A DNA stretch of 64,000 nt from Gracilaria domingensis (GCA_022539475.1 VCMS01000015.1:186001-250000); one strand, 5' to 3'; counted from the first letter of the stretch, positions 31,339-64,000 are shown. The notes: generated from the letters alone by a model not told the origin. A program made the numbers and translations.

Positions 31339-31440
31339 AACGAACTTCACCTGTCTTCGAAGTTTAGTACAATCTCCCCTGCAGCTTTCTTCGTGCATCA
31401 AGTGGATACTACAGTTTTGGAGGAAGTTCTCTATCCGAAT

Positions 31441-33861
31441 ATGTCCGGAGCTGGTTCGAGTACTAAGAACACTGGGAATGTGCTGCCGTACCCAGAGCCT
31501 CCGTTTGAGGGAGAAGTAAAAGTCAATGCTTCAGAATCCACTCAGAGCTACCCTGCCGCAACGAAAGCTCCAGAAAATGCCCCCAACATTATCCTCATCA
31601 TGACTGATGACGTCGGCTTCGGTGCCGCCAGTGCCTTTGGAGGTCCATGCCACACCGATACAATGGAACAGTTGCTCGAGGAGGGGATTCGATACAACCG
31701 TTTCCACACAACCGCTCTCTGTTCGCCCACTCGCGCGGCACTTCTCACAGGACGTGAGCCTCACAACTGCGCGCAAGGAATCATTGCCGAACGTTGCATG
31801 GGATTTCCAGGCTACAACTTTCTTATGCCAAAGAGTTGCGGAACAGTTGCTGAGATATTGAAGCAAAATGGTTACAACACTGCGTGGTTTGGGAAGAATC
31901 ACAACGTTCCGGAATGGCAGATGAGTCAATCTGGACCGTTTGACCTTTGGCCGACCAATTTGGGCTTTGAGTACTTTTACGGCTTCATTGGGGGTGACTG
32001 CAATCAGTGGAAGCCCAACCTGTACAGGAACACCACGCCTATTCAGCCGTATGAAGGAAAGGATGACTATCATCTTGATGCTGATTTGGCGGATGAAGCC
32101 ATCCAGTGGATAAGGCAGCATCAGGCCCTCACTCCCAGCGACCCGTTCTTTGTGTACTACGTTCCAGGAGCCACTCATGCCCCACATCATGTGCCGGACT
32201 CTTATATCGAGAAGTACAAGGGTAAGTTTGACAATGGATGGCACGCGCTCCGAGAGGAAACTTTTGAGAAACAGATTGCTAAGAATATCATTCCGGACAC
32301 AACGAAGAATACTCCATACCCGAGTAACATGCCAGAATGGGAACCTCTGAGCGATGATCGGAAGCGAGTGTATAGTCATATGATGGAAGTGTATGCTGGC
32401 TTTCTCGAGTATACGGATCACAACATAGGCAGAGTTCTGAAAGAAGTGAAGGAACAGGGAATCGAGGACAACACGCTGGTGATCTACATTCAGGGAGACA
32501 ACGGAGGAAGTGCTGAGGGTACCGTGCAAGGAACTACCAATGAGCTGGCAGTGCTCGGAAACGACATTGACGAATCGTTCAGCTTCATACAGGAGCAGAG
32601 TGACAACGGTCTCCTGGGCGGTCCCATGAATTACAATCACTTTCCAGTATCGTGGAGCTGGGCGCTTAACTGTCCAATGCAGTGGACGAAGCGCTACGCC
32701 AGTCACTTTGGAGGCACTCGAAACGGCATGGTGATGAAGTGGCCCAACAAAATCACTGACGTGGGCACGTCGCGTTCGCAGTTCCATCACGTTGTAGACA
32801 TCGCGCCAACCATTCTGACGGCGGCTGGTGTACCCTGGCCACTTGACTCAATCAACGGCGTGACGCAAAAGCCTTTGGACGGCATATCGATGACTTACAC
32901 ATGGGAAGCAGGTTGCGCCGAGGAGCGTCGCGTAGAGCAGATCTTTGAGATGTTTGGCAACAGAGGCCTGTATCAAGAAGGTTACATGTGCTGCACAACG
33001 CCGCTTGTGTTTGCGTGGGACGATGACTCGCAGAACGGGACTTACAAGGCGAGCGACTTTGAGTGGGAGCTGTACGACCTGAACACGGACTTCAGCCAGG
33101 GGCACAACCTCGCGAAGGACGATCCGCTCCGCACGGAGAAAATGCGCGCGGCGTGGATGGAGAAGGCGCGTAACAGCCCGATTCTGCCGCTGGTGTTCAC
33201 GGAGAATGAAACGATTATGGCGGGCTTTGTGCGGCCCAACCTGAACGAGGGCCGTACCACGTTCAACCTGCCGGGCAATCTGCGACGCGTTCCCGAGGGC
33301 GTGGCACCCAACGTGAAGAACACGTCGTTCTGCCTGACGGCGTACGTGGAGTACAAGGATGCAAGCACGGAGGGGGTGATCATCACGCAGGGCGGTCGCT
33401 TCGGCGGGTGGGGGCTCGTGGTGCTGGACAGCGTGCCCGTGTGGGTGTACAAGCTGTCGCAGATGACGGGCCATGAGTTCCGCATCACGTGGCACGAGGC
33501 GCTGACCACCGGTATTCACAAGATCCAGGTGAGTTTCGAGTATGAGGGCGGCGGCACGGATATTGGAGCGGCCGGCACGTTCTACATGAGCGTGGACTAC
33601 GGCCAGAGCAGTTGCGACAAGAACACGGTTTTGTCGCAGTATGTGCCGCAGACGATTTCGGCAAAGTTCTCGGTGAACGAGACGATGGACGTGGGCTGTG
33701 ACACCGGCACGCCCATTCTGGACGAGTATGAGCCGAAAATGCCGTTCGAGTTTTCCGGGTCTGTGATGAAGGTGACGATTGACCTGCTGGACGGCGCGAC
33801 GGCGGAAAAGCGCAGGAAGATCATGCAGAGCGTGGCGCACTTTGAGGTGGCCACAGACTGA
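31441..33861 (+). CDS. Sulfatase (formylglycine-type, S1 family)
   Basis: Encodes 806 residues and hydrolyses sulfate esters, in this setting most likely on a galactan or another sulfated glycan. Near the start NIILIMTDDVGFG (about residues 49-61) supplies two metal-binding aspartates. CSPTRAALLTGR (94-105) is the C-x-P-x-R signature whose Cys94 becomes formylglycine. Further family marks are WFGKNHN and YIQGDNGG. The C-terminal 200 residues look like a beta-sandwich (YVEYKDAS ... TFYMSVDYG). No signal peptide is evident. ATG 31441 is chosen because the frame upstream has only a GTG, and a TATA box lies 111 bp before. The length and architecture resemble the large bacterial-type arylsulfatases. 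The gene is intronless. Third-position GC rises sharply after about 32.7-33.0 kb, unlike the first half. The exact substrate cannot be assigned. Confidence 0.92.
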   Translation: MSGAGSSTKNTGNVLPYPEPPFEGEVKVNASESTQSYPAATKAPENAPNIILIMTDDVGFGAASAFGGPCHTDTMEQLLEEGIRYNRFHTTALCSPTRAALLTGREPHNCAQGIIAERCMGFPGYNFLMPKSCGTVAEILKQNGYNTAWFGKNHNVPEWQMSQSGPFDLWPTNLGFEYFYGFIGGDCNQWKPNLYRNTTPIQPYEGKDDYHLDADLADEAIQWIRQHQALTPSDPFFVYYVPGATHAPHHVPDSYIEKYKGKFDNGWHALREETFEKQIAKNIIPDTTKNTPYPSNMPEWEPLSDDRKRVYSHMMEVYAGFLEYTDHNIGRVLKEVKEQGIEDNTLVIYIQGDNGGSAEGTVQGTTNELAVLGNDIDESFSFIQEQSDNGLLGGPMNYNHFPVSWSWALNCPMQWTKRYASHFGGTRNGMVMKWPNKITDVGTSRSQFHHVVDIAPTILTAAGVPWPLDSINGVTQKPLDGISMTYTWEAGCAEERRVEQIFEMFGNRGLYQEGYMCCTTPLVFAWDDDSQNGTYKASDFEWELYDLNTDFSQGHNLAKDDPLRTEKMRAAWMEKARNSPILPLVFTENETIMAGFVRPNLNEGRTTFNLPGNLRRVPEGVAPNVKNTSFCLTAYVEYKDASTEGVIITQGGRFGGWGLVVLDSVPVWVYKLSQMTGHEFRITWHEALTTGIHKIQVSFEYEGGGTDIGAAGTFYMSVDYGQSSCDKNTVLSQYVPQTISAKFSVNETMDVGCDTGTPILDEYEPKMPFEFSGSVMKVTIDLLDGATAEKRRKIMQSVAHFEVATD

Positions 33862-35699: not shown

Positions 35700-37847
35700 A
35701 GTTAGAGTTCACCAAGGAAATGAATTCATCATTTGAAGAGTTGAAGAAAAAACGTACGTCTCCGATGCTGTTGGCCTTCCCAGATTTCTTTAGAGCGTTC
35801 CGTGTTGAACTGATTGATCTACTGTAGCACTAGAATCTCTTCCAGCTCAGGAGAAAAAAGATTGAATGTTCCATCCCGACCAGTATGTGAGCTGGACTTT
35901 GAAGTCGTCCGAAAAAAATTATTCTGTCTGCAAGAAAGAAGTTCTAGCAGATACCTTCGCTTTGAAGAAGTTCAGAATCTGTTTGCACTCTTCTATCGCG
36001 TCCCAGTTGCTGACTGATCACCAGGCATTGAAACATTCGTTTTCGAAGAAGTATGTTCACGGTCGTCTTGCCAAATGGTTGGATTTTCTCGCCGACTATT
36101 AATTTGAGATCGTCTATCGTCCTGGGGCTGTGAGTAATGCTGCCAATCATCTCTCTTTTTATGCACTCGATCCGCAAGAAGCAGAGAACTCCGTCGAAGA
36201 AGGTGATCTGGTTGCTTCGATTGGCTTTCCCGATTTTGAAGGCATTGAGCCGTACTACGCGAACACTGGCGGCTAACTTTGCAACTTGGTGATGGATGAG
36301 GAAGAACTGAAGTGGCGCACTGCTGCGCAGCGTACCGCAAAGCACTTTGTTGTTTGGAATGACCTCTTGTTCCGCAGGACGAAAGATGGAATTCGTCTGG
36401 TCCCCCTATTCGTGACCGTATTCCGTTGATTCGAGTGTTTTGTGATGAAGTCGGACATTGGAATAACGACACTACAAGGAATTTCTTAGTCGATCGCGTC
36501 TGGTGGCCGACAATTCGTGGAGATATTCACAAGTATGTTCAGAGTTGCGTAGAATGTCAGTTGATGGCGCCAGTGATCTCGTACCGAGCCAATCAGAGAG
36601 CTCCGCTGACAAAAATCTTTGACACGTTCTCAATGGACTTTGCAGGACCTCGTCCTACTAGTACTTCTAGAAATCGCTTTTTTCTAATTGGAGTAGAACA
36701 TTTGACTGGTTGGCCTATCGCCATTGCTACCCCAGATTCGACCTCATCAGTTGTTGTCCAACTTGTGAAGAAGGAGATCATCCTTCCCTTTGGTCCACCC
36801 CGTGTCATTGTGTCTGAAAACGCTACCTCTTTTCTGGCTAGTTCGATTCGAGAACTTCTGAAAAAATATGGAACTCAGCTGAAGCCGGTTCTAGAGTACG
36901 CTCCGATGTCGAATGGTAGTGCCGAAAGGATGGTTGGAACGATCAAGCGCGCCATTGCTAAGACTATCGTCGACGAAGGATCAGATTGGGACATGGCTTT
37001 AGATCAAGTCGTTTATGGCTACCGCCGCCGCAGGTTGGTTGGTGGATTCTCCCCATTTGAGCTAATGTTCGGTATAATTTCTCGCATGCACCCCACGGAT
37101 CCAATCCCCTTGATTGAAGACGCCATGCTGTTCGAACGCCGTCTCGAATTATTGGCTGTCCTTCCCCAGCGGGCTACGCGTGTTCCGATGCAGCCTAGTC
37201 GCCAGGATGACTCGAAGTATGCTCATCGTGTCAATTTAGGAGATGAAGTCTTTGTCGCTGTTATAAAAGCTCTGAATCGTAGGGTGAAGTGGCCTTCTTT
37301 CGTATCGAAGTTCTATGGACCGTGCAAGGTGGTCAAAGCATCTCATCCCCGTTATACTCTGGTCCCTCGCGGAAACTGGTACTCCAGGAAGTCTATCCAT
37401 ACCGGTCGTCTCAGGCCGTTTCACCCTCGTCCGATTCATCTTACGACGAATGATGATTCTCAGTAATTCGTTTCGTGTCGGTTGCAGCGGCGTGCCAAGA
37501 GTTCAGTGGGGGAGTGTGTGAAGTGGGAATTCTACAATTTATGATTGTTATTGCATGTATTTGATATCCTATACTACATAATGTGGGTGCGGTGCACTGC
37601 TGTAAGTACAGTCAGGAGGACATCGTGACTTGGCATGCGTGCATTGCCCGAAGGCGATGCCACGTGTGCTAAAATGGCCAATGATGTCACATTGTACTGG
37701 CTTCGGCCCCACTACTCTACAAATAGGAGTACTACTGCATCTAGTTAATAACTATAGTGCGTTATTGCATTTTAAGTTCGTTCTAGAGGGTTCAAAAATC
37801 TATATAATGGGTCGTCAAGACGCCTGACGGTGTCTCGACACAACACA
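35700..37847 (+). mobile_element. Gypsy-type LTR element fossil C, 3' part
   Basis: Plus-strand remains of a Gypsy-type element: reverse transcriptase/RNase H remnants (about 35.75-36.25 kb, with LADTFALKKF and LLTDHQALK), then an integrase. The integrase (to 37466) has a zinc-binding start (GHWNNDTT ... CVECQ), a core with FSMDFAGP and MSNGSAERMVGTIKRA, and a C-terminal domain. A purine tract (GTGGGGGAG) precedes a 3' LTR at about 37515-37847, which has a TATA-like TATATAATGG near its end. Gag, protease and the 5' LTR are not seen, so it is truncated, and the RNase H part is broken. It belongs to a different clade from elements A and D. Confidence 0.8.
37515..37847 (+). repeat. 3' LTR of element C
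   Basis: Begins TGTGTGAAGTGGG directly after a purine tract and ends ACAACACA, about 333 bp long. No 5' partner was found in the window, so the right boundary is tentative. Confidence 0.5.
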
Positions 37848-42487: not shown

Positions 42488-45400
42488 TCAAAGACCGAGT
42501 ATCTTCTTTGCCTTCTTAGCCAATGCTTGGGGAGTAGTTTTGCGGCGCAGTAAACGTGTCACCATGACTGGCACGTCTTTGTACATTTGTGTGAGTGGTT
42601 CCAGAGTATCTTCGTCCTTGCTGAGACCCTTCCAGCGAACATGAACAAATATTCCATCTTTGTTCTCCAGCAGTTTCAGTAAACGGGAAACCGGCATACC
42701 TGTTTCAGATGTAAGCACATGCGACATGATAGCCTCCTTGTTGAGCGAGGCGTCGTGATAGAACTTCAAGCGAGAGCCATGTACATCATCTACCATACCG
42801 TTGCGTAGATCTTCTACTTGGAAAACATAGTCTGAAAGCGCTTTAACAATTCGTCTGGGGCCGCGCCAACGCAGCGCCAGCTTCTCGCCGGCGTGGAAGT
42901 CCTCACGAGCCACTAGAACAAAGTCACCCTTCTCGAAATTCGGTAGTTTGCCTTTGGAAGCGCGAAACCGAGAGAGTGCGCGATTCTTCTGCAGCGCCGT
43001 ATGCACCAACGGGTGCAGCGCAGCAACTTTCACCCTGAGAGCGTCAATGTTCACGCACTTTTCCAACAGTGCTTCGGTTACAGTCATCGCTTCGGTGGTG
43101 GTGGTGCGGAGAAAGGTTGAGATGGGAGGGGTCGGTTCCAGGCCAAGAAAAGCCGTAATGGGGGCGATGTTGTTGCGCTGAGGTGAGGGTGCGTTGTTCA
43201 GAACGCTTTGTATGACAGGTAGAAGGTCCGGCCACTCCGAGAAGTCCATCTGATATTCGGAGACCAGAGCGCGAAAGGTGCGAATTACTTCCTTTCCGAG
43301 GCGTTCTACTGCTCCGTTGCTCCAGGGCGTGTAGGGCAACGTGAAATGATGCGGAACACGAAGGCCTTTCGTAACCATGCGCACGGTCTCGTTTCGAAAG
43401 TGTGTAGGGCCATCGGACATTAGTCCTTGGGGAACGTTAAAGGCCGCGCACCAGTCCACGATTGCTAGAGCGGCGTTCTCGGCAGAAGTCCCGGGTGTTG
43501 CGAAGAACCACTTGTAGTCCGAATGATCGTCTCTGAGCATCAGAATGTACTTGAAGCCTGCTTGGCTCGGCCCGATTTCAATATAATCAAACTGGAGCAG
43601 GTCATTCGCTTTCGTGCCGTGTAATGCAGGCCCGAATGGGCGCGGGACTTTCTCTCCGCCAAGAGTTGAGATGCAATGGATGCATCCCTTCACGAAAAGG
43701 TGCACGTCGTTGGGGAGGGTGCTCCAGTGATAGTACTTGCTCAAGGTGCTCAGAGTCGTCTGCCTACCACGGTGTCCGGCTGGTCCGGTGTGTGCAATGA
43801 TGCAAAGACGGAGTTGAAGATCCTCCGAGGCATCTGGTATCCAAATTGCGCCGGCTGAGGTTTGCCACAGACCCTCCGAAATGACCAAATGCTTGGGGCG
43901 ATGATTAGTATTGCGTTTTTGTTGTTCGGCAACTTCGATGGTGGATGGCCAACAAAATTCGTCTGCATTTGATGACGGCAAAACGGGGATCTTGACCAGA
44001 CGACGGACAGTAGGTGGAGCGCACCAGCGAGTCATCATGTCGGTCCACACATTGTCGAGGCCACTGATGTGGAAGCAGAGGTACGAGTAGGCGCTAAGGC
44101 GCACAGCCCAGCGGAGAACTTTCCGAATCGATGACTGACTGAGATCTGGGAGGAGCGATAGAGGGTCAAACAAAAACACCAAGTTGTTGTGATCAGTGAA
44201 GAGGTCAAATCCGGCAGCTGTGGCTGCCAACCAGTGCATGCGCTCGACAGTGGCCATGATGGCGAAACCTTCTTTCTCGAGAGTCGACCAGCCGAGTTGG
44301 GTTGAATTGAAACGCCCAGAACAAAACGCAAGCGGAGTGTGGCGCTGTTCGCTATGTGGCTTCGCAAGGTCTTCGTACGGCACTTGTGTCACAATACCAG
44401 ACCAGTGAGTATCAGAAGCATCGGTGTAGATGCAGAGGCGTTGCTCTTTGTCCCGATGAGCGAGCGTCACGGTTTGGGCGAGTGCTTTTTTGCAGTTTTC
44501 GAAGGCGCTGCTCTCATGTTCGCCCCATCCTAGGGAGTTCAACTGAACTGCTGCCACAGCGCGTTTGGTCCGCTTTCCAACTTGATCGTAAACGCGTTCC
44601 AGGAATTCATGCAGCGGGGAGATCAATTCAGTAAAACTTGGGATAGCGGTCTTCACCCACTGCATTGCGCACACAAACTGCTGCAGGTGTGCGCCGGTTG
44701 TCGGTGGCTCCATGTTCACCAAGCCATCCAGCTGTCGCGGATCGTAGCGGACTCCATCGGCAGATACAATGCGACCACACCAACGAATTGACTTAGCAAA
44801 CAGTATGCACTTTCGGGGGTGCAAGCGAATGCAATAGTGAGCACAGGTGCGAAAAAGAAGGCGGATGCCATCCAAAAGTCCTGCGATGCTGTGACTGTGC
44901 AGCAGTATGTCATCAAGCCAATATAGTAGCTGACGTAGCAAGTCTTTGGGGAAGACATTGGCCAGTGCCGACTGCAGATGAGTTGTAGCATTGGTGGTGC
45001 CATGGAGCACCCTGGTTGGAGAGAAGACACCGTCAGGCGTAATCAAAGACTGGAGTTCTTGAGAGTCCTTATCCAGAGGAAATTGCCAGTAGCCGTGTGA
45101 GAGGTCAAACGAGGCGAAGAAACGCGATTTCGCCAACTTCAGAAGCTCCTGTTCGATGTTCGGCATGGGGTACTGATGCTTCACAGTGTACTGGTTGACA
45201 GGGCGGAGGTCTACTGTGAAGCGGAATCGGGCTGCTCCCGGCTTCGGGACGATGAGAGGGGCTGACGCCCAGGGTGAGGAAGGATTGGGGTAGGCCATGC
45301 CCGCTTGTATAAGCTCAGTGACGAAACCGTCCAGAAATTTGCGCTGCTCTTGTGAGTACTTGCGCAAGCGAACTCGGACCGGGCGAGCGTCAGGAGTCAG

Positions 45401-47221
45401 AGAAATCTTCAGAGGTGCGACCTTGGCAGCGGGGCCAGAAGAGAGGGATGTCCGAAAGATGTTGAGGTTCTCCTGGACAATCTGTTTCAATGTGCATGCG
45501 TGCTCTTCAGGAAGGCTGTTTGCCACGGCACTGGCAACCATGCCAGTGACTGCTTCGCAAATGTCGCTCTCTTGGTCGGCGTCAACAGGGTCAAGGAGTG
45601 CTGGGTCAGGAAAAGGGTCCTCGTCACGACGGGCGGTGTCGTAGACAACTCGGGGCCGATCGGCTGATGATGGCGATGTACTGGCGGATAGGGCGTTCAT
45701 GCGAGCTATCATTAGACGACTGACGTAACCCTTGGTCGAGTGTGAGGTTGGGTTTCCAACGTCAGAACAGTCCGCGCCATTGAGGGAAAACCTGTTGTTG
45801 TCCAAAAGCGTATGGGTGTCTACACGTAGGTGCTGCAGGACGGGTCTCCCGATGAGGAGGTGTTCACATGCTAAATCATCGTCAGCTACCAAGAAGGAGA
45901 TGTTCATGAGGGCGAGGTTTCCAGACGCCAGGTGGAGGATTGTGCGAGGCACAGTCCATGTCCGCGAGAAAGAAAACATCTGCGCTCTGTCCTGATGCTC
46001 TTTTTTCAAAGCGACTGCTAAAGACACCTTCTGAATGGCAGAGATCTTTCCGATCCCTTTGATAGCAGCATCCTCGGCCAGCCGTGGTGAGACGATACTA
46101 TCATCGCTGCCATCGTCGCAGCGCCCAGTCGAATCGATGGATGTGATTCCATCTGAGACCGTCACATAGCAAGCCGGCAAGGCATTCTGCTGAGAAGGTT
46201 GTAGTCGAGCAACGACACCGGAGTTGTTCCGCTTGGCCTTTTGCCCGCGTGTGGACCGCGAGGGACCATCGGCGGCCTTCCGTGCTGCGAGTTCGGACTT
46301 CAGATCTTCCTTTTCGGCCGCTGTGGCCTTGGGACAGTCATCAATCCAATGACGGGCGCCCTCAGCTTTGCAAGGCGGATGCGGGCAAGGCGGTTGTCGT
46401 TTCCCTTTCTGGTTGGTTGGTTTCGCTGTAGCATCTGTGTTTTCAGATGAAGATTCGGCCCCCATTCTGTTGCGAGTTGTACTTGCATTGCTGTTAACCC
46501 GGTTTTGCGTCTTGGATGAACGTGCCCGGGGCGGTGGACCCGTGTCAACAATTTGAAAAGCTTCAGCGACTGTGAGTGCGTGCTTCATAAATCCCTTGAA
46601 GTCCTTCCGGAGCGGTGCGTAAACCAGTTCTAGATCGCTTTCCAGGCGTTGTTGCAGAGATCTAGGCTTCACAGCTGATACGATGTGTCTAACGGCGAGT
46701 TTAGAGTGGTCCTTTGCCACCCATGACAAGCCATTACGACGAAGGATGGACACATATGAAGTGAATAAGCTTTTCATTCGCGAGCGGGAGGAGTTGTCGG
46801 ACATATCCATTGTGAGCTCCTGCCGAACCACTGCGTCGATCTCTGCTCCAGTCATCGTGTCCTTGTCCTCTTCAGCTTCAGATTCCAAGTATAGACGAAG
46901 TTTGGCGTCGGTCAGATCTTTTGGGTCTTTGACGCCTGGAATGTATTCCAATTCGATGCAAGACTCGAGCCATTCGGAGTCAACACAGTAGCTGAGGTTG
47001 ACAGGTCGGACTGGTTCGGTTGTGGTTGAGTCGACAACTGCCAGTTGTAGTGCCCTAGCGGTGACTTCTTTGACATACTGGTCGTATTGGCTTAGAAACA
47101 CTCGAATGGACTTGGGGTTGGTGTTTGTCAGTCGTGGATGACTGAGAGAAAAAGAGACAGATGTCGGCTGCTGCAAGACAGTATTGTCTCCGTGAAGTGT
47201 TGGCGTTGATGCCGACGCCAT
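42488..47221 (-). mobile_element. Element D gag-pol polyprotein
   Basis: A single frame of 1577 codons from ATG 47221. In order it has a gag domain, a CPHPPCKAEGARHWIDDCP zinc knuckle, a retropepsin-like region, and a reverse transcriptase with RFTVDLRPVNQ and YWLDDILLHS. RNase H (CIYTDASDTHWSG) and integrase with its zinc-binding part (HTGPAGHRGR ... CIHCIS) follow. The integrase core has DYIEIG and PWSNGAVERLGKE. A chromodomain-like tail (FVHVRWKGLSKDEDTLEP) closes it. The chromodomain-like end suggests the chromovirus type. Gag and pol share one frame with no shift needed. Confidence 0.92.
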
Positions 47222-47268
47222 GATCAAACAGAAAATGCGATACAACCGTTAGTATCGGCAGTGATCAC

Positions 47269-50292: not shown

Positions 50293-51234
50293 TTACAATT
50301 GCCAGGTGCGAATGTACATCACCTCGAAGTCGTCAAACGGATCATTGCGAAGGGGGTCTCCAATCCAATTGAAGTACTCTCGATCGAACTGAACACGCAT
50401 CTTCGCGTTTCGAAACTCGCCACCATGATCAAACTCTCTCACCAGCGTGTCGTTAAGATACCAACACACCTTGTTCTTGGTCCATAGTAGTCCGGTCTTG
50501 ATATACTGCTGCCTGCTCAAATCTTGATCCAACACCACGAATTTCGAATTTTCATGATCGGTTCTTTGATTACCGCGTCTCTCAAACGTATGTACGTTCA
50601 TGAGAAACTGATTGGCCAAAGGTAAGCGTCGGCGACCGTCAAGGTTCGTGCTCGTGCTGTACTCAAACACGTCTATCTCACGTTCTCTTCCTCCTCGTTC
50701 CTTGAGCCAGAATGCACTAGAAAGCCCCGAGTCTCCCAGTTTAACCACGGCCTCAAAGTAACCATACGTGATCTCTTCTTTGCTTCTCACAAAGGAGCCG
50801 GTATAGAAGCGGCGACCTGTTCTCATTCTCTCTTCGATCTCTCTTCGGTGGCGTTGACCAAACGCTTGAAGAAAGCCTGACGTGGGAGTGTTGTGCTGAC
50901 GCGCCCTTAGAACCATGGACCTGCCGTCGTACGTGACATTGTTCTTATCAAACACGGCAGGGAAGCGGCCTTGCCAATGATTATCGGTTGTCCATCGATC
51001 AAGCTGATCCATTGGAACTCTCTCGCGGGCGCTCTCTGTGTTGAACTCGGAGGAAAAATTGTATTGCTTCACCCATTGCATATTAGCCGGCGCCTGCCTC
51101 ACAATATAGCTCGGTGGCGGATCTTCATGTCCACTAATAAGATCCGGAACCACAGTAACTTCTGGGAGAGCCATTGTTACTGGAAATTCTCTCCTATCTC
51201 TCCATCTAGGAGGAAATGGTCGTCTTGCATTCAT
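50293..51234 (-). CDS. GH16 family glycoside hydrolase
   Basis: Encodes 313 residues of the GH16 family, whose red-algal members act on galactans such as agar and carrageenan or related glycans. The core is present: a YTGSFVRSKEEITYGYFEA strand pair, SGLSSAFWL, and the catalytic motif EIDVFE (nucleophile Glu, assisting Asp, acid/base Glu of ExDxxE). It ends with the family's closing strand (DPFDDFEVMYIRTWQ). The N-terminus (MNARRPFPPRWRDRREF) is basic and not an obvious signal peptide. A TATATAAA box lies about 100 bp upstream (51331-51338). The stop codon is embedded in a perfect splice-donor-like GTAAGTAA, so a further 3' exon cannot be excluded. Substrate is not assignable; remodelling of the wall galactan is the likely role. 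Confidence 0.85.
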   Translation of the reverse strand: MNARRPFPPRWRDRREFPVTMALPEVTVVPDLISGHEDPPPSYIVRQAPANMQWVKQYNFSSEFNTESARERVPMDQLDRWTTDNHWQGRFPAVFDKNNVTYDGRSMVLRARQHNTPTSGFLQAFGQRHRREIEERMRTGRRFYTGSFVRSKEEITYGYFEAVVKLGDSGLSSAFWLKERGGREREIDVFEYSTSTNLDGRRRLPLANQFLMNVHTFERRGNQRTDHENSKFVVLDQDLSRQQYIKTGLLWTKNKVCWYLNDTLVREFDHGGEFRNAKMRVQFDREYFNWIGDPLRNDPFDDFEVMYIRTWQL

Positions 51235-51330
51235 TGGGAGATTTGGATGAAACTTGACGAGAAGTTATGAGTTACAACACCGCACATTGAGATGACACAG
51301 ATTAACCGCTCATCAGAGAGGAACCAAAGG

Positions 51331-53597: not shown

Positions 53598-53685
53598 AAA
53601 TGAATTAAGTGGTCTTCTTCTCGTCCTTCGTATTCGAATCAAGTCAACTTAATCGGAAGTACCACTCTGTTCGAGGATCACCATA

Positions 53686-54435
53686 ATGAACGACTCACGT
53701 TCAGTGCTTCGCGCTTCGTTGCTTTCGCTGCTCTTTGCCGTGGCGCTCTCATATCCCCAAGTTGCCGATGAGTACACAAAACATGGACCAGGCAGGACTG
53801 ACAGCCCTCTCACAAATCATGCAGCACGTCAAGCGCAGAATACTGGGGCCGTAGCAACCTCACAGCCCACAAGGTACAACCCGGAGGTCTGCTTCGCCAT
53901 CGATGGAAGTGAATATTGGGGATTAACAGGATTTCAGTTACAAAAGGACTTTGTCAAACTGGTTGCGGCCGCAATCGAAGGCCGCGTTCCGAGGTTCAAA
54001 CACGCGGGAGTGCAGTTCTGGAAACCTATTAGCCCGCTCAATGAAGATGTGAGCGAGTTCCTTCATGAGGTTGATACGACTGAGTATATGAACGCGACAA
54101 ATAGTTTCATCGGTCTTGGTATTGCGGAGTGCTGGAGACACCTGAAGAACGTTAATGGACAGCCGCAAAAAATTGTTTTGTTCCTTCATAGTGATTACAA
54201 CGACATTACGTTCCAGTTGGCAATTACCATGGCGCAGAAATTCCTTGATAATCCGGGAAATTCGCTGTATGCCGTGGGTTTGGGTAGTTTCGAACACCCC
54301 GGACAAGTTGAGAGCCTCGCTGGAGCCCCCCACAGAATATTTCTAGGTGAACAATGGGCTGATCTCTTTGCCGCTGTTCCCAGTCTCGTTACTCAGATTT
54401 GCACTATACTCGTTGGCGTTACCGGAAGAACGTAA
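53686..54435 (+). CDS. Secreted von Willebrand factor A-domain protein
   Basis: Encodes 249 residues. A signal peptide (SVLRASLLSLLFAVALSYP) is followed by a linker of about 40 residues. A single VWA domain covers residues 66-245: VCFAIDGSEYWGL (first strand and metal-site region), VQFWKP, SFIGLGIAECWRHLK (helix before the third metal-site loop), KIVLFLHSDYND and SLYAVGLGSF. The metal-binding DxSxS motif is imperfect (DGSEY), so metal-dependent ligand binding is uncertain. No transmembrane segment or anchor follows, so it is probably secreted into the wall or medium. The gene is intronless. The start is fixed by the ATG behind a TATA box at the usual distance. VWA domains bind proteins or matrix; the partner is unknown. 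Confidence 0.85.
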   Translation: MNDSRSVLRASLLSLLFAVALSYPQVADEYTKHGPGRTDSPLTNHAARQAQNTGAVATSQPTRYNPEVCFAIDGSEYWGLTGFQLQKDFVKLVAAAIEGRVPRFKHAGVQFWKPISPLNEDVSEFLHEVDTTEYMNATNSFIGLGIAECWRHLKNVNGQPQKIVLFLHSDYNDITFQLAITMAQKFLDNPGNSLYAVGLGSFEHPGQVESLAGAPHRIFLGEQWADLFAAVPSLVTQICTILVGVTGRT

Positions 54436-55291
54436 TGGTTGATCAGTTTCATAAGGAGAATAATTGGAGAAGCTTCTGTTCGCATTCGGTCTGATCGATT
54501 AGAATATTGTTGCATTTGTCTGTTTACAACTCTATCTAGCTCTCGTTGCGGTTAAAGAGTGCTTTAATCTTCAGTCCTCACTAAACATTTGCCTTTGCGC
54601 AGTCTTGGATGGCCGGGCATTGCAAGGCTAGGATGAGGTGAAGACCAAAGTCTATTCTGCATGTGCATATGTCATTGAGGTTTTGTTTCCCCAATTGTCT
54701 CACAAAGCTACGCTTGTTAGACACGATCCAAAGTGAAAATTTTCTGAGCACCAACACTCACGTTTTGAGCAGGTGCTCGCAATGCCACGTAGTACGTCGT
54801 CGGCCATTTGCTTCCACGGCTGCAATGCGCTGGCGGCAGAAGGATAGCCTTTGGTAGACGGTACTTGGGAGGTAACCTGAGGGCTACCGTCGGTATCCTG
54901 CGGTACCGAACGGACCCGCGGAGAGCATCTTTGTCTGCTCGACGACTCAGTGCGCGCGTGGGGTGTCCATCGCTCGCGGTCCTTGGTGGCGCCGTGGTGG
55001 CCTCGTGGAATCTCAATTCCACAAAATACCGAAAAAACACCGAGGAATGATACACTCGATATATCGTTTTAAATTACCTGTTACTAACAACTTGTTTTCG
55101 GAAAAAAGCCGTTCTGTTCCACTACTAGCTTGTGGAAGCAAGAGCTGGCCGTTACACCAGAAAGATGCCGTTTCATGCATGCTCTTGAACTCTCTCCTAT
55201 CCGTCACTGCGCTTCCCTGCCAGTATCTACCATCTCAGCGCAAGCACTCTCAACTTCAGGGTTCGCTTCAGCTCGATCTTCTCGCGCCGTC
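54436..55291. other. Intergenic stretch upstream of the Cys-rich gene
   Basis: No gene recognised. No canonical TATAAA lies at the usual distance before 55292; an AT-rich CGATATATCG is at about 55057. The open frame continues upstream of the chosen ATG without an in-frame stop until before 55130, but that part has no domain and reads unlike a signal peptide. Confidence 0.4.
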
Positions 55292-56488
55292 ATGGCGAAT
55301 ATGTTCCTGCTTTCTCTGTTCACATGTTTTGTTTCCATCGCATCGCAGAGCGTATGTCCTCCCGGGTCAGAAGTGGGACCAAACAACACATGTGTACCTT
55401 GTCAACCGGGTTTCAGCAGCCTTCAAACGCCGGACTCCTCCGTCTGTCTCTCCTGCACATCTGGAACGTTTCAGCCGCTTTCCGGGCAAACATCATGCCT
55501 ACCCTGTCCTCCAGGAACCGAGTCTGTCTTTGGCGCCACAATGTGCGGGGCGTGTCGTGATGGGCAGATCGTGTTTGCGAACGGAACTTGCGCCGATTGC
55601 CCGCCAGGAAAGCAGTTTCGCAGGGCCACCCGAAGCTGTGAATCATGTCAAATTGGCTTTTTGAAAATAAGGGAAGGACCAGGCCCTTGTCTGCCATGCC
55701 CCAGCGGTTCCTTCTCTATATCCGGTGCCACCGAGTGTTTTGCTTGTCCAGAGAACCAAGCTCCAGTTATGGCCGATGGGAGCTGCGGGAAATGCTCAGC
55801 CGGCTCGTTTTTTCAAGAGTTCAGGCTTGGTTGTTCGGAGTGTCCTCCTGGAACCTTCACAAGCGTCGAAAATGTGTTCAATCGTTGTGTTCCATGTGAA
55901 AGAAACACATTCGCATTGCTACCAGGCGCTTCGGAATGTTTTGCTTGTCCGGAGAACCAGGCACCGATCATGCCGGACGGAAGCTGTGGACAGTGCCCAC
56001 CGGGCTCTTTCCTGGACGATTTGAGCGGCAGTTGCGTGGAATGTTTCCCTGGCAGTTTCTCAAACGTTCCGAATGTGTTCTCCCGGTGCATTCAGTGTGG
56101 AGGAAACTCATTTGCACCACAAGGCGCAGCAGAGTGCATCCCATGTCCGATTGGTCAGGTGTTCATAAACAGCACACAGAGCTGTGAGCCTGATTGCGAG
56201 CCAGGTTTCTTCTACGACGAGTCTGCCTTGGAATGCTTGCCATGCGCGGTTAACCAGTTTAGCAGAGGACGCGGACTGGGTTTCTGCAATCCGTGTTTAT
56301 TTGGGAGTTTTGCTCGAGTGGGATCGTCTACGTGCTTCTTATGCCCTCCTGGACAGAGCTTTATTGAAGCCATTGATGGTTGTGGGGTGTGCCCTGAAGA
56401 CGCGCCTTACAGTATGTTGACTGCCAGCTGCGGATCGGGCTCGACTGTCCTCATCACTCCCCTTCCGGAAGCTTCTGATGAAGCGTAA
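55292..56488 (+). CDS. Secreted cysteine-rich repeat protein (ephrin-receptor-like/TNFR-like modules)
   Basis: Encodes 398 residues. The start MANMFLLSLFTCFVSIASQS is a signal peptide. ATG 55292 is preferred over an upstream in-frame ATG at 55175 because it places the signal peptide at the N-terminus and matches the MAN start of the paralogue at 7058. The rest is a chain of CPPGxxxxx-CxxC modules of the GCC2_GCC3 kind, ending in a short Cys-free tail (VLITPLPEASDEA) with no membrane helix. About 69 residues are duplicated in tandem, each copy starting ECFACPENQAP and followed by DGSCG, GSF and a VxNVFxRC segment. Such modules form disulfide-rich rods in extracellular proteins. Function is unknown; a wall or surface role is likely. 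Confidence 0.82.
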   Translation: MANMFLLSLFTCFVSIASQSVCPPGSEVGPNNTCVPCQPGFSSLQTPDSSVCLSCTSGTFQPLSGQTSCLPCPPGTESVFGATMCGACRDGQIVFANGTCADCPPGKQFRRATRSCESCQIGFLKIREGPGPCLPCPSGSFSISGATECFACPENQAPVMADGSCGKCSAGSFFQEFRLGCSECPPGTFTSVENVFNRCVPCERNTFALLPGASECFACPENQAPIMPDGSCGQCPPGSFLDDLSGSCVECFPGSFSNVPNVFSRCIQCGGNSFAPQGAAECIPCPIGQVFINSTQSCEPDCEPGFFYDESALECLPCAVNQFSRGRGLGFCNPCLFGSFARVGSSTCFLCPPGQSFIEAIDGCGVCPEDAPYSMLTASCGSGSTVLITPLPEASDEA

Positions 56489-57683
56489 AGGTATTTCTGC
56501 GACCGGTCATTGAAAGAGTTCCATCGACTCAAACAATGACAGGTATGCTCTTTGTCAGGAAGTTGCGAAGCGGTACATACACCCGGCCAAAAGCACCGGG
56601 GGGGTACGAAGTTGAGGTGTATGGCAACATTCAACTTGCTCTTTGTAATCGAACGTCATCGGCTCAGCATCAGCATCGAAAAGGCGCGAAGTCTTGGCAT
56701 GGTGGGGTCACCCCACTGGGGTGGCATGGTGGCGGCATAATGGCCGCATTGCTGGCACGCGGTGTTTGGCTCTTGGTGACGTCGTCGACGTGCATTGGTT
56801 TCAAATTTCAAATTTGAAACGCTCTTTTGCTAAATATACTTAATATTCCAAACAATCAAGTTTGATTAGATTAATTAGAGTTCCCAAATAATCTTCCTCC
56901 CTAGAAACAATTAAATTCTAATTCATTCGAAACAGTAAAATAATATGGTGAGATGAACGTGGCCACTCAGCAGACAATGCAAGTTGTACCAATCGGAATA
57001 AAGCATTTTGAAAACTTTAGCTTAAATTTTGCAAATTTGTTACACATGGGGCAACTCCAGCACATAGTACACGTGGCCAAACCGACACTAGTTCAATGTG
57101 GCCACCACCAACATCTCACATTCCCACAATTTCGATTCTTCAGGTCAATCTCGCTTCAATCTCCGAGAGTTGCACGGCGCGGGAGATAATTTTTCTCCGG
57201 CCGAACTGTCGGAGATTGCGAAGTTGGTCCGCATCAAGCGGATTGATTGCGTGCACATCTGTGGCGGCGTGCGACGAATGTACGGCGTCTCCCAATTCGG
57301 TCACAGTGTTGTCACCATGCTTAAACTTTGTCAGCTCGGCGAGTTCCGCTTATCTTTTGGGAAACATGTACAATCAAAACGCTAAACGCTAACCATTGGA
57401 GCGTGTTGGAGGAGAGTTTGGAGTCAAGCGGGGAGCTTAATTCAAACTCTCCTTCAACATATTCCAATTGCCACGAAATGTGTCAGCACTTCGCTTTCCA
57501 TCACAAGCAAAGTCAAGCTTGTACTTAAGCTTCCCTAGGGTTCCCAGCACTTCCATTCGACGTTCGCCGCTCAACTTGGTCAGTACTACTCTTCGTCGTT
57601 CTACTGTGCTTGGTCCATTTCAAGAGCTTCATCCCACAATCGTGAAAGCCCCCACGTTATCTCTACGTCGCAAACACTCCACC
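56489..57683. other. Intergenic stretch with one coding-like frame
   Basis: A frame at 57098-57385 reads like protein (SPAELSEIAKLVRIKRIDCV then HICGGVRRMYGVSQFG) but lacks an ATG and has no recognised family. A palindrome TTTCAAATTTGAAA is at about 56805-56818. CACGTGGCC-type motifs recur near 56960 and 57070. Confidence 0.35.
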
Positions 57684-59420
57684 ATGTCTCACATATACAC
57701 GCCGTCCGCGGAAAGCCTCGCCGTGTTTGATCAATTGAAGGCCGAAGTTGATCACAAACGTTCTGCAGCCTTGGCGAGCTTGAAAGCTACGAGAACCGTG
57801 TGCAAGGAAACCGGGCAGGAAACTGGCACCGGTGACGGAAAGTGCATCTCCAGTACTTCCGCAAGGAGCTGGTTTGGTCTACTCTCACCGGGGCGACCTA
57901 CCGCACTCCCTCGAGAAGAAACGGTTTGCAGCCGAAAAGAGAAGGGTACGGTCGAGGAGACAATGGCGGTGAATGAATTTGATCACCGTGATGGGCAGAC
58001 GTTTGCTTCCCTGGACCCGCTTTCTCTGTCTTCCTCTATCAAGAGCTGGAGAGTTTTATCTTCAAGCACATCTAGGCAAAGCTCGGCGGTTGTTGAGGAG
58101 ATGCAGCTTCGTGAAAAGGGATCGTCTGCCTCGGCCAGTTCGTGTACGATCGGGGGTGTGAACGAAACCGGTGCTGCTCACGACTGCAGTTCCACTTCAG
58201 TGTCTCCGCTGGGTGGCTGTTTCAAGGCGCTGCCGGGATGTGCGAAGAAACAGGCGATAGCCGAAAAGGCACAAGTGCACACGAAAGTCAGCACAAGGGC
58301 AACGGGCATGGAGGCCGTGGGGGAGGTGAAGGTGGTCAGCTGGGAGTGGTTTGAAGCGCATTCATCGCAAGAGCGCACCAGCGGATCATTGCGCATCGAG
58401 GCAGAGGCGCCTCCGCAGTACACTCCGTCAGCAGAGAGCCTGGCGGTGTTTGACGAGGTGAAGGCAGAAGTGGACAGGTGGCGTTCATCGGCGTTGGCGA
58501 GCTTGAAGGCGATTCGCAGGGGGAATGAAGGTTGTTCTGGAGATGGTGCTCACGTTTCCGCGACCAACGCAGCACGAAGTTGGTGGGACTCATCGTCGTT
58601 TCCGGTTGCAACCGGCGGCCGACGCATGAAGCAAGCAAACACGGGAAGGGGTTGTCGGGACGAGAGTTTGCCGCTCGCCGATGTTGAGAGAAGGGCTCTC
58701 TGCAAGGATGATCACGTCAGCAACGGGAAGGAGGCCGGAGAGCATGCGCGTACATCGGGCCTCACGCGGCGGCACAACGATGTGGAAGTCATAGCATCGG
58801 TGGAAGAAGCGCGAAAAAAGAGGGCGACCTCGAGTTGTGCGCGTGGGAACGACGGGACGGAGCGCGATGACGGCGCAGTTTCAATCCCGGCGACAGCAGC
58901 AGACGCCAAGGAGTCGCCCTCATCAGGCGGAGGAACTGCGAACAACGAAAGCGTGCTCGAGCGCGACGGAGCACTCAGAGCCGGCGAGAGCAACCGGCGC
59001 GAGGGCCGGCAGCGCGAGCAGGAACGCAGCAAAGGGCGCGGGAAGAAGGTGGCGTTCGGGCCGATGACGGAGAAGCAAGCGGCAGCGGCAGAGTGGCGCG
59101 AAGCCGTGCGGCAGCACCAAAGCAGGCTGCGCGGCGAGAAGCCGTCCAGCTGGCGGCTGTGGAAGCGCGCGCACATCCCGTTCCAGCTGCGCTCGTCGCG
59201 CGCCAGCGCGGCGTCCGGCGCCTCGTGCGGATGGGAGCTCAACGAGCGCCTGGCGCGTCGCGTGCGAACCGCGCGCTGCGCGGCTGGTGGCGGCGCGTGC
59301 GCGAGCGCGCGCGGGCGGTGGCGCACGCGGTGGCGCGCGCAGCGCGCGCGCTGCTGCGTTGGGTTCGCGCCTTCCCTTCGCACCTTCACGCGCGCGCATG
59401 ACGTCACGTCGCACGTGTAA
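57684..59420 (+). CDS. Unrecognised protein with two copies of a conserved block
   Basis: Encodes 578 residues from ATG 57684 (the frame upstream of it has no other ATG in a good context). Two similar segments begin YTPSAESLAVFDQLKAEVD (residues 6-24) and YTPSAESLAVFDEVKAEVD (about 246-264). Each continues with ALASLKA, a GDG turn and an ARSW motif, giving a unit of about 70 residues. The rest is Ser/Arg/Glu-rich and probably disordered, with a basic helix-prone region near the C-terminus (KQAAAAEWREAVRQHQSRL, SWRLWKRAHIPFQL). The last 80 codons are extremely GC-rich, and another frame there reads more like a helical protein, so a frame error or different end is possible. There is no signal peptide. 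It lies 1 kb upstream of the NLR-like gene in the same direction. Confidence 0.55.
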   Translation: MSHIYTPSAESLAVFDQLKAEVDHKRSAALASLKATRTVCKETGQETGTGDGKCISSTSARSWFGLLSPGRPTALPREETVCSRKEKGTVEETMAVNEFDHRDGQTFASLDPLSLSSSIKSWRVLSSSTSRQSSAVVEEMQLREKGSSASASSCTIGGVNETGAAHDCSSTSVSPLGGCFKALPGCAKKQAIAEKAQVHTKVSTRATGMEAVGEVKVVSWEWFEAHSSQERTSGSLRIEAEAPPQYTPSAESLAVFDEVKAEVDRWRSSALASLKAIRRGNEGCSGDGAHVSATNAARSWWDSSSFPVATGGRRMKQANTGRGCRDESLPLADVERRALCKDDHVSNGKEAGEHARTSGLTRRHNDVEVIASVEEARKKRATSSCARGNDGTERDDGAVSIPATAADAKESPSSGGGTANNESVLERDGALRAGESNRREGRQREQERSKGRGKKVAFGPMTEKQAAAAEWREAVRQHQSRLRGEKPSSWRLWKRAHIPFQLRSSRASAASGASCGWELNERLARRVRTARCAAGGGACASARGRWRTRWRAQRARCCVGFAPSLRTFTRAHDVTSHV

Positions 59421-60414: not shown

Positions 60415-63400
60415 ATGTCGGCCTACTTCGACTTGGTAGCTCCCGGTCTCACAGTGTTATCCAAGCTTGAAACCACCGTCAACGAGTGGTACAACCGTGG
60501 CGACATCAAGGAAGACAACAAACGACAACTTGCTGATCTCAAACGCCTGTACAAAACCGTTACCAACATTCTTCGTCGCCTTGAGTACGTCACCCACCCG
60601 GACATTGTCACGCTCGAGCTACTCAGCTTTCACATGGAAACATTTGCGGATGATGTCGAACAACTCGAATCATGGAGTGAGCCCATCAACACCGCGAAGC
60701 GCTTCAAACGTGTTCGGCGCATGAAGGACGTTCTTGATGGTTGCCAGACGCGCCTCGAAACCTTTGTGGACTTCCTGCTGAACAAAATCTCCCCCATGCT
60801 GCCGACTGAACTTTCCAAGCCAGATCAGTACATCAGCCGTAACACCGTTCCGCCAAATCCACCGAGACTCATACTGGACTACGACACACCCGGCACCAAC
60901 GAGTGCAAACTTAAGACCGCCGTACTAGAGAAAAGTGAAGCCCGCGTCGTCGCTGTGATCGCTTCGGGACAAGGCGGCGTTGGCAAGACGTGTGCTTTGC
61001 GAGGTCTAGCAACGCATAGCGAAGTGAGGAGCAGCTTTCCTGGAGGAGTGTTGTACATACAGCTTGGCAACGACGCCACCATTCAAAGCATTATCTCAGG
61101 TATCTCGGCTATCGTGCACAAGACGGGCGGGAAACAAATGGCCGACAAGATAAAGGGGATGAAATCGTTGAGCGACGCCGCCGACCTCGCCTCGAACTGG
61201 TTTCACGCCCATACTTGTCTCCTTCTCGTGGATGATATCTGGAAAGTGAACGGGATAGATAGCTATGTGCTCAAGATTCTGGGCAGAATGGTGAACGAAA
61301 GGAGTCGATTGGTGTATACCACAAGAGATGAACGATTCCTAGGTGACGAGGAGTGTGTCATGTTTGAGAGGAATGAGGTGAACGGCACTCGGTCACGCCA
61401 AATGTTGATGAATCATGCGAGATCCGAAAAGCCGGGTGCTCTAGATGAGAGTGTCCTCGATGAGAGCAACCGGAAAGCGTTCGAATCCATCTTAGATATG
61501 TGCGACGGCCTTCCTCTGGCACACGGTATTGCTGGAAGTGCGGTGCGCACAATCTCAATCTCACTTGAGCGAAAGCAGGACGCTTGGTCACAGTTCTATA
61601 CCGATACAATGGCCAAACGAGGACATAATATAATGGATAAGCTGTCCATTATCGTGGATACTTCGCTTGAGGTTTTGGACAGAAACAACAAGGAAGGAGT
61701 GTATGCGGAGCGCTTTCGGTACTTGTGCGTTCTTCAGAAGCAGCAAAAGGTTTCCGTGCGAATGCTTCAAAGGCTGTGGAATATGGAGACCTTGGCGGAT
61801 GCTGAGAAAGTCGTGGACAGGTTTCGAGAAGTGTCCATTGCGCAAAAATGGGTAGAAGGAAATCTGGTGTTCTTGCAGCTACATGATTTGGTTCTCGATA
61901 TATCAGTTTGGATGGCGGAAGGACGTCGTCAGAGACGCAGAATCCTTCAAAACCTTGTTCACAGCTACATTCCAGATGGTCGCTGTGGAGACCCGTCGTT
62001 CGAATGGTGGGAGATTGAAGAAGACGGGTACTTTTACGACAACGTGTGTAGAGTTCTTCGGGAGGGCGGGCTTGCGTTCCTGCTGATTCGGCTGCTGTCC
62101 AGGCCGCAATGGATTGCAAAACGTCTCGTAAGCAGCGGGATCTACGCCGTTGAGCAGGACTTGGGGCATGGCATAGCGATTGCGAACGAGAGCAGGCACG
62201 GCTATTCGGATCACAAGGACCATCTGGTCATGGTCGGCAGAGCTGCGCGGATGGGCTGCACGGCAGTGGCTTCCAACCCTCGTGAAGTTTGGTTTCAACT
62301 GCACGGACGTCTGCTGCAGCACGCGGAAGAATGCAAGCAGACCAAAACGTTTGTGGTGGAAATTGAGAGGTGTGCGCCGCGACCGTGGGTGCAAGCTTCT
62401 TTGGGGATTTTGCAACCTCCGGGTGCTCTGCTTGAAATCATACGCAGCCCGAGCACGCCACATTGCGTGACGATAGAGCGAGATGGAATTTGGTTCTCAT
62501 GGGGTTCAGCATGTAAGGGCGGGTCTCCCGGCGTCACGGAATATCGAAGCGAGAGTGGAGTTTGCAGATCCGAACCATTCGTCACTGAAGAAATGCACAA
62601 CAAAATAGTCGATTGCAGCGTGATTCTTTCGGAGCAGAACAGCGTTGTCACCGCCGGGAAGGACCGGAATGGGAATGGAACAATCGTGACGTGGGATACA
62701 GAAACAGGGAGGATGAAGCGAGTGGTCAAGTGCGCCCACTTTGGCTTTGGGCATAAATTCTTAGCGTTCAGCTGTGACGGTACACGAGTGACGTCCACTG
62801 ATGGAACGCATCAGATCCGAGTATGGGACGCACGTAGCGGCAAGGAGCTGACGCCGCTCTTGTTCAGTCTCCCTCGATTGCTTACCTGCGCTGCGATGAG
62901 TGCGGACGGTGGGCGCATTGTGTCGAGGTCTGTGGACAACACGGTGCGCGTGTGGGACGCGCGTAGCGGCGAGCGGCTGACGCCGCGGTTTGTGGGTCAC
63001 ACTGATTCGGTTACCTGCGTTGCGATGAGTGCGGACGGCGGGCGCATTGTGTCGGGGTCTGTGGACAACACGGTGCGCGTGTGGGACGCGCGTAGCGGCA
63101 AGCAGCTGACGCCGCCGTGTATCGGTCACACTGATTCGGTTACCTGCGTTGCGATGAGTGCGGACGGCGGACGCATTGTGTCGGGGTCTCGGGACAGGAC
63201 GGTGCGTGTGTGGGACGCGAGAAGCGGCAAGCAGCTGACGCCGCCGTGTGTCGGTCACACCGCATCGGTTGAGTGCGTTGCGGTGAATGCGGACGGCGGG
63301 CGCATTGTGTCGGGGTCTTGGGACAGAACGGTGCGTGTGTGGGACGCGAGAAGCGGCAAGCAGCTGACGCCGCCGTGTGTCGGTCACATCGCATTGGTTA

Positions 63401-64000
63401 GGTGCGTTGCGGTGAGTGTGGACGGCAGGCGCATTGTGTCGGGGTCTTACGACAGGACGGTGCGTGTGTGGGACGCGAGTAGCGGGAAGCAGATGACGCC
63501 GCCGTGTGTCGGTCATTCCGCATCGGTTGAGTGCGTTGCGGTGAGTGCGGACGGCGGGCGCATTGTGTCGGGGTCTGTGGACAACACGGTGCGCCTGTGG
63601 GACGCGCGTAGCGGCGAGCGGCTGACGCCGCGGTTTGTGGGTCACACTGATTCGGTTACCTGCGTTGCGATGAGTGCGGACGGCGGGCGCATTGTGTCCG
63701 GCTCTTCGGACAACACGGTGCGCGTGTGGGACGCGAGTAGCGGCGAGCGGCTGACGCCGCCGTGTGTCGGTCACACTGGATGGGTTACGTGCGTTGCGAT
63801 GAGTGCGGACGGCGGGCGCATTGTGTCGGGGTCTAGAGACAGGACGGTGCGAGTGTGGGACGCGAGAAGCGGCAAGCAGCTGACGCCGACGTGTGTCGGC
63901 CACAAAGGGGACATTACCTGCGTTGCGGTGAGTGCGGACGGCGGGCGCATTGTGTCGGGGTCTTTGGACAAGACGGTGCGTGTGTGGGACGCGAGTAGCG
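60415..64000 (+). CDS. NLR-like receptor: helical N-terminus, NB-ARC, tandem WD40 (3' end outside window)
   Basis: One open frame of at least 1195 codons from ATG 60415 to the window edge. Residues 1-130 form an alpha-helical bundle; the segment around WSEPINTAKRFKRVRRMKDV then QTRLETFVDF resembles the MLKL/HeLo-type N-terminal domain (inference). The NB-ARC ATPase follows: P-loop GQGGVGKT (185-192), Walker B LLLVDDIW (269-276), sensor VYTTRDE, GLPLA (365-369) and an MHD-equivalent LHDLV (489-493). After a linker come one or two diverged WD40 blades, then from about 62885 at least nine 43-residue WD40 repeats spaced exactly 129 bp and nearly identical. This is an Apaf-1/NLR-type switch, probably triggering a response when the propeller binds a ligand. 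No stop or intron is visible. Confidence 0.9.
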   Translation, partial: MSAYFDLVAPGLTVLSKLETTVNEWYNRGDIKEDNKRQLADLKRLYKTVTNILRRLEYVTHPDIVTLELLSFHMETFADDVEQLESWSEPINTAKRFKRVRRMKDVLDGCQTRLETFVDFLLNKISPMLPTELSKPDQYISRNTVPPNPPRLILDYDTPGTNECKLKTAVLEKSEARVVAVIASGQGGVGKTCALRGLATHSEVRSSFPGGVLYIQLGNDATIQSIISGISAIVHKTGGKQMADKIKGMKSLSDAADLASNWFHAHTCLLLVDDIWKVNGIDSYVLKILGRMVNERSRLVYTTRDERFLGDEECVMFERNEVNGTRSRQMLMNHARSEKPGALDESVLDESNRKAFESILDMCDGLPLAHGIAGSAVRTISISLERKQDAWSQFYTDTMAKRGHNIMDKLSIIVDTSLEVLDRNNKEGVYAERFRYLCVLQKQQKVSVRMLQRLWNMETLADAEKVVDRFREVSIAQKWVEGNLVFLQLHDLVLDISVWMAEGRRQRRRILQNLVHSYIPDGRCGDPSFEWWEIEEDGYFYDNVCRVLREGGLAFLLIRLLSRPQWIAKRLVSSGIYAVEQDLGHGIAIANESRHGYSDHKDHLVMVGRAARMGCTAVASNPREVWFQLHGRLLQHAEECKQTKTFVVEIERCAPRPWVQASLGILQPPGALLEIIRSPSTPHCVTIERDGIWFSWGSACKGGSPGVTEYRSESGVCRSEPFVTEEMHNKIVDCSVILSEQNSVVTAGKDRNGNGTIVTWDTETGRMKRVVKCAHFGFGHKFLAFSCDGTRVTSTDGTHQIRVWDARSGKELTPLLFSLPRLLTCAAMSADGGRIVSRSVDNTVRVWDARSGERLTPRFVGHTDSVTCVAMSADGGRIVSGSVDNTVRVWDARSGKQLTPPCIGHTDSVTCVAMSADGGRIVSGSRDRTVRVWDARSGKQLTPPCVGHTASVECVAVNADGGRIVSGSWDRTVRVWDARSGKQLTPPCVGHIALVRCVAVSVDGRRIVSGSYDRTVRVWDASSGKQMTPPCVGHSASVECVAVSADGGRIVSGSVDNTVRLWDARSGERLTPRFVGHTDSVTCVAMSADGGRIVSGSSDNTVRVWDASSGERLTPPCVGHTGWVTCVAMSADGGRIVSGSRDRTVRVWDARSGKQLTPTCVGHKGDITCVAVSADGGRIVSGSLDKTVRVWDASS
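62885..64000 (+). repeat. Tandem 129-bp WD40-coding repeat array
   Basis: The landmark GCATTGTGTC recurs at 62915, 63044, 63173, 63302, 63431, 63560, 63689, 63818 and 63947, exactly 129 bp apart. The units are very similar in DNA, including silent sites. Most amino-acid changes fall at a few places: the two or three residues after GH, the residue before CVA, and the residues on either side of the Asp in SGSxDx (V, R, W, Y, S or L; then N, R or K). Units alternate between KQLTPPC and ERLTPRF endings. Confidence 0.92.

Follow-up and report, generated by a model that had tools for sequence, protein, structure and literature searches.

A candidate NLR-type receptor gene with homogenised, hypervariable WD40 repeats in the red alga Gracilaria domingensis

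Introduction

Apaf-1, the protein of the animal apoptosome, combines an NB-ARC nucleotide-binding switch, a winged helix, a helical domain and propellers, as does the receptor described here; unlike that receptor, it carries an N-terminal CARD and diverged blades and has cytochrome c as its ligand. We know of no red-algal intracellular immune receptor with a demonstrated ligand. According to a review, red algae are without the canonical plant immune receptors (PMC8307928), and NB-WD40 genes are already known from them: in Chondrus crispus, WD40 accompanies the NB domain in 58 of 61 NB-encoding genes (PMC7145615), Pyropia yezoensis genes that combine NB-ARC with WD40 increase in expression on oomycete infection (PMC6928737), and rhodophyte and cyanobacterial proteins with NB-ARC, WH, APAF1_C and WD40 domains have been noted alongside an Ulva homologue (PMC8891106).

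Repetitive WD40s are common in bacteria and in some lower eukaryotes (PMC5587647, PMC9218822), and fungal NLRs are enriched in homogenised WD40, ANK and TPR repeats (PMC4986451). The HNWD receptors HET-E, HET-D and HET-R of Podospora anserina join homogenised WD40 units to a STAND switch. Seven positions serve to type their repeats (10, 11, 12, 14, 30, 32 and 39; PMC12222747), and their four strongest selected codons form two pairs flanking conserved residues 8 and 26, which lie 18 codons apart (PMC1805685 numbering). Brown-algal NB-ARC-TPR genes, in the account of Teng 2023 that is cited in PMC11378527, likewise pair an algal NB-ARC with a diversifying repeat domain; as described there, they rely on TPR repeats, exon shuffling and splicing, whereas our receptor carries its repeats in one open frame.

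Here we describe an NB-ARC/WD40 gene with homogenised, hypervariable blades; a literature search that took in few subscription journals found no description of such repeats in an algal NB-ARC gene.

Gene and domain architecture

The window, the whole 64,000-nucleotide stretch of DNA that we analysed, ends within a plus-strand reading frame (60415-63999) of 1195 codons without a stop, still open at the window end. The frame starts at an ATG in a favourable context (CCAAAATGTCGG), and the gene is intronless across its visible part and looks intact; no paralogue was found elsewhere within the 64 kb. Its features are as follows.

60415..63999, + strand: uninterrupted receptor reading frame, 1195 codons, cut by the window end
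60415..60798, + strand: predicted N-terminal four-helix bundle (residues 1-128; AlphaFold helices, no sequence family found), followed by a low-confidence linker
60910..61614, + strand: NB-ARC nucleotide-binding switch (residues 166-400; PF00931, E=1.4e-13; Apaf-1 chains by sequence, E=4.2e-06)
60967..60990, + strand: P-loop, GQGGVGKT
61219..61242, + strand: Walker B, LLLVDDIW
61318..61329, + strand: TTRD (sensor 1 / RNBS-B type motif)
61507..61521, + strand: GLPLA motif
61714..61899, + strand: putative winged-helix domain (PF21296, E=8.5e-04, under the curated cut-off)
61879-61887, + strand: LHD at the MHD position of the winged helix, invariant in the aligned bacterial homologues
61939..62430, + strand: APAF1_C-like helical domain (hhalign against bacterial homologues, probability 86.5, E=4.6e-06)
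62428..62838, + strand: about three diverged WD40 blades, with low-confidence strands in the structure model
62839..63999, + strand: nine in-register 129-bp WD40 units, the last eight (62968-63999) highly alike; the array reaches the window end

Pfam matches, motifs and predicted helices bear out the sequence-only reading of a helical N-terminus, an NB-ARC with its main motifs and a WD40 region, the last matched by PF00400 over nine stretches (E=6.8e-92). The switch motifs are intact, with LHD replacing MHD. A Pfam search gave no direct match of APAF1_C itself to the receptor; residues 144-805 are nevertheless colinear over their whole length with bacterial proteins that combine NB-ARC, winged helix, APAF1_C and WD40 (hhalign probability 99.9, E=5.8e-31), two of which match APAF1_C directly, and the best PDB sequence match of the receptor is Apaf-1 (E=4.2e-06). 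A winged helix and an APAF1_C-type helical domain, as in an Apaf-1-like architecture, are thus both predicted, and by its domains the protein is an NB-ARC/WD40 STAND protein with an Apaf-1-like NLR architecture. It likely belongs to the same family as the red-algal NB-ARC-WD40 genes (Chondrus crispus, Pyropia yezoensis and the Rhodophyta sequences in PMC8891106), which share the NB-ARC and the C-terminal WD40; the receptor differs from them in having no TIR, with a predicted four-helix bundle instead.

For that bundle, AlphaFold without alignment input placed helices at residues 2-28, 33-58, 64-85 and 93-124 (block pLDDT mostly 63-82). Searches of PDB sequences, Pfam, NCBIfam and PADLOC returned no family above threshold for the N-terminal domain, residues 1-162 gave no Pfam match to a HET domain, and residues 1-128 had no counterpart in the bacterial homologue alignment. 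Against solved structures the matches listed were generic bundles, with no significant E-value; MLKL, HeLo and plant CC chains were absent among them, an absence that excludes nothing. The single PADLOC match, which pairs the WD40 part with a HEAT-ARM model, is uninformative. The full-length model is modest (pLDDT 65.6, with most repetitive blades at about 75-89); at a pTM of 0.43, its top solved match was full-length Apaf-1 (Foldseek E=1.5e-33), and the next structural match after the Apaf-1 entries was 2ymu, a highly repetitive propeller.

A homogenised repeat array

TRF reported a repeat of period 129 at 62824-64000, with 9.1 copies and zero indels, confirming that at least nine WD40 units stand in exact 129-bp register. 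The eight units from 62968 share 83-96% DNA identity and 67-95% protein identity, which supports the repeat homogenisation proposed earlier; between these eight and the unit at 62839, DNA identity is 78-85%, and the in-register unit at 62710 is only about 42-46% identical to later units. With nine blades in register and about three diverged, the receptor has at least 12, from which we infer enough blades for two propellers, some missing past the window end. Mean blade-core identity is 0.80, so that the array reaches the cut-off of over 70% used for highly internally conserved (HIC) WD40 sensors (PMC5587647), its mean lying under the stricter cut-off of over 85% (PMC4986451).

Silent sites had also been described as nearly identical between units. 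They are indeed alike, to about 90%, but near-identity was an overstatement: pS outside the hypervariable codons described below is 0.097, and 6 of the 23 residue-invariant degenerate codons carry a silent difference. Across 62428-63999, GC3 is 0.56 for the diverged blades and jumps to 0.76 for the array, a step that either GC-biased conversion or descent from a GC-rich founder blade could explain. In a four-gamete test, 21 of 55 site pairs suggest mosaic units, the signal outside the hotspots coming from the single codon 42; the mosaic look may also come from recurrent mutation. The units at 62968 and 63613, five units apart, share 96% identity. Block duplication at that spacing was considered, but the mean identities for the different spacings (0.85-0.91) do not settle the matter. 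Judged from the assembled sequence, an assembly artefact is unlikely, because each unit can be told from the others and the reading frame is unbroken.

Hypervariable codons and selection

Non-synonymous differences rank highest at unit codons 32, 16, 34, 13, 14 and 12, in that order. Together these six account for 57% of all such differences, a share equalled by 0 of 200,000 random six-codon sets, and the concentration of amino-acid changes at a few unit positions is therefore confirmed. The uniform random-codon null is too generous owing to WD40 structural constraint, and bacterial arrays were added as a second control; because these vary at the same sites, we do not accept the permutation as sole proof of selection.

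At the hotspots pN is 0.51, against 0.064 elsewhere in the unit, and pS over the whole unit is 0.14. The putative signal of diversifying selection, drawn from one array and one haplotype, is a hotspot pN far above unit-wide pS (about 3.6 times; bootstrap pN(hot) minus pS(all) 0.26-0.50, never reaching zero), yet dN/dS is 0.88 for the whole unit and only 1.34 within the hotspots. The latter value is held down because silent differences are also raised there: across 62968-63999, same-residue pairs use different codons in 27% of cases at hotspots (13/49) versus 9% elsewhere (76/863). This raised silent divergence may represent older variants kept against homogenisation, or higher local mutation, which could then have a share in the hotspot pattern. 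The case for positive selection hinges on setting hotspot change against silent change in the rest of the unit, and conversion may have reduced the latter.

In the receptor unit V15 and D33 are likewise 18 codons apart, and because this spacing equals that of the conserved HNWD residues we use a register offset of +2 relative to HNWD. Hotspots 32, 16, 34, 13, 14 and 12 then correspond to HNWD positions 30, 14, 32, 11, 12 and 10, and HNWD site 39 is invariant in the receptor. Per-codon diversity across units, the check that the sequence-only reading had called for, places the six top codons at six of the seven HNWD typing sites and upholds the view that variation falls at the same propeller-face sites as in the fungal proteins (PMC12222747, PMC1805685). 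The two systems differ in other respects: HNWD proteins are fungal, with NACHT and HET domains and 42-residue units, whereas the receptor has 43-residue units and, by Pfam, no NACHT but an NB-ARC.

Bacterial control arrays

An alignment-based scan of 84,980 prokaryote genomes yielded 80 control loci and a viral collection six more, all picked for their similarity to a WD40 alignment in which NB-ARC proteins were already present, which is a bias of the set. A scan of genome contigs with the single receptor protein, using peptides that lay mostly outside conserved motifs, found no relatives. Across 44 arrays from outside the window (mean blade-core identity at least 0.60), mean entropies were highest at sites 14, 32, 16, 13 and 34, followed by 9 and 12. 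Because most bacterial arrays of comparable identity share it, the variable-site pattern is not specific to HNWD; it marks repeat-homogenised WD40 sensors generally and is no mark of descent from HNWD. Calling the receptor HNWD-like in the sense of kinship is not supported, for it has neither NACHT nor HET and is colinear with cyanobacterial and other bacterial NB-ARC-WD40 proteins and with Apaf-1.

Among 31 control arrays, silent divergence outside the hotspots ranged from 0.02 to 0.67, and hotspot pN (median 0.47) depended little on it. The receptor array sits inside this distribution, with identity 0.80, hotspot pN 0.51 and, over the same blade core, pS outside hotspots of 0.11. A set of 20 repetitive bacterial-type proteins with long N-termini comprised 18 with a STAND NTPase (nSTAND1, NB-ARC or NACHT), one with TIR alone and one with a protein kinase, several additionally bearing TIR, caspase or CHAT. 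NB-ARC/APAF1_C/WD40 proteins of cyanobacteria and other bacteria, such as those of an Acaryochloris 'Moss Beach' plasmid (L001) and of Arthrospira (L012), resemble the receptor in their colinearity from NB-ARC to WD40, their homogenised blades and their variable sites; they differ in an N-terminal region unrelated to the receptor's.

These controls bear on an alternative that we consider unlikely, though deserving of serious attention, in which the array is a nascent propeller recently amplified from one blade and the six positions vary for want of structural constraint, with no diversified recognition. Nearly every repetitive WD40 array from bacteria, the kinase fusion included, does show variation at these sites, many lineages amplify new propellers from single blades (PMC9218822), and the whole-unit dN/dS would suit such an origin. 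Unconstrained sites, however, are expected to change at about the silent rate, and hotspot pN in the receptor exceeds pS both in the unit and in its remainder; in bacterial arrays with silent divergence of at most 0.10 outside hotspots, hotspot pN is already 0.28-0.53. Fusion to immune-type switches, moreover, is the rule among the bacterial arrays.

Two further observations concern the control loci themselves. On a conjugative plasmid of an intertidal Acaryochloris (L001:904-9083), adjoining CHAT, NB-ARC/APAF1_C/WD40, TIR and NB-ARC/TPR genes form a compact immune-type cluster. Contigs filed as viral (L085-L090) encode WD40-repeat proteins, that of L085 with TIR and NB-ARC, and could be misbinned bacterial DNA.

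Genomic neighbourhood

Bacterial contamination was rejected because Ty3/gypsy-type and other eukaryotic-type elements share the sequence with the receptor gene. Ty3/gypsy-type retroelement frames occur at 2192-6150, 16018-19325, 36363-37466 and 42488-47248; the last (- strand), the only one of these frames that was scanned, consists of one frame of 1586 codons that encodes RT, RNase H and integrase, along with a weak chromodomain. A sulfatase (31312-33861, +) and a GH16 glycoside hydrolase (50293-51264, -), both single-frame, are of a kind expected in galactan cell-wall metabolism. A VWA-domain protein with a hydrophobic N-terminal stretch is encoded at 53653-54435 (+); in some red algae, lectins that contain VWA have been proposed to sense microbes (PMC8307928). 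Cys-rich frames at 7022-8884 and 55088-56488 (+) contain Ephrin_rec_like/TNFR-like repeats, and a 659-codon frame at 57441-59420 (+), with no Pfam match, has an internal duplication (YTPSAESLAVFD...SALASLKA twice). The intronless gene, its GH16, sulfatase, VWA and Cys-rich neighbours and the Ty3/gypsy-type elements are together consistent with a red alga.

Discussion

The predicted domain order, the intact switch motifs, the homogenised repeats and the hypervariable sites can all be read from the gene, and we think it probable, if well short of assured, that they belong to an NLR-type receptor in which blade exchange and selection diversify the propeller face. In such a receptor the 12 or more WD40 blades would form a double propeller, the top face of which would bind one or more ligands. 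Binding would free the NB-ARC switch for nucleotide exchange and Apaf-1-like oligomerisation, and the four-helix bundles thereby brought together would set off a response, probably cell death. That output is a guess because the N-terminal bundle has no significant relative; the bundles might signal via membrane disruption, as plant CC or MLKL bundles do, an idea backed by no specific structural match. Near-identical blades would exchange by unequal crossing-over or conversion, creating new binding faces, and selection would favour differing residues at the six face positions. As the predicted ligand, something made by a pathogen or parasite is likelier than a house-keeping partner that is conserved.

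Allorecognition is a possible role for the receptor, and one that we judge rather improbable. It would police the fusion of genetically different thalli or of parasitic red-algal cells, in the manner of HET-E and HET-D, and the closest functional precedent for homogenised WD40s that vary at these positions is fungal allorecognition (PMC1805685, PMC12222747). Coalescence into chimeras does occur in red seaweeds (PMC5325190), but the chimeras form readily, which argues against strict rejection; the absence of HET and NACHT domains and the presence, in bacterial relatives, of domains linked to anti-parasite defence weigh in the same direction. A house-keeping role as an Apaf-1-type adaptor in cell death, responding to a conserved internal ligand, although Apaf-1 is the best match both by full-length structure and by PDB sequence, is very hard to reconcile with blade-to-blade hypervariability on the presumed ligand face and with the many NB-WD40 paralogues in Chondrus (PMC7145615).

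This putative NLR-type receptor, with its readable, hypervariable predicted binding face, is a concrete candidate for a red-algal immune receptor. More tentatively, and with a slight balance of doubt, we propose that red algae keep an NB-ARC-WD40 repertoire whose specificities are rebuilt by the exchange of near-identical blades under diversifying selection, in which case the fungal strategy of homogenising and diversifying repeats would also be at work outside fungi, in another eukaryotic lineage whose Apaf-1-type scaffold is shared with cyanobacteria. One pattern of repeat evolution recurs with different switch domains in bacteria, in fungi and in an alga, which suggests that rapidly evolving recognition inside the cell can arise by one general route.
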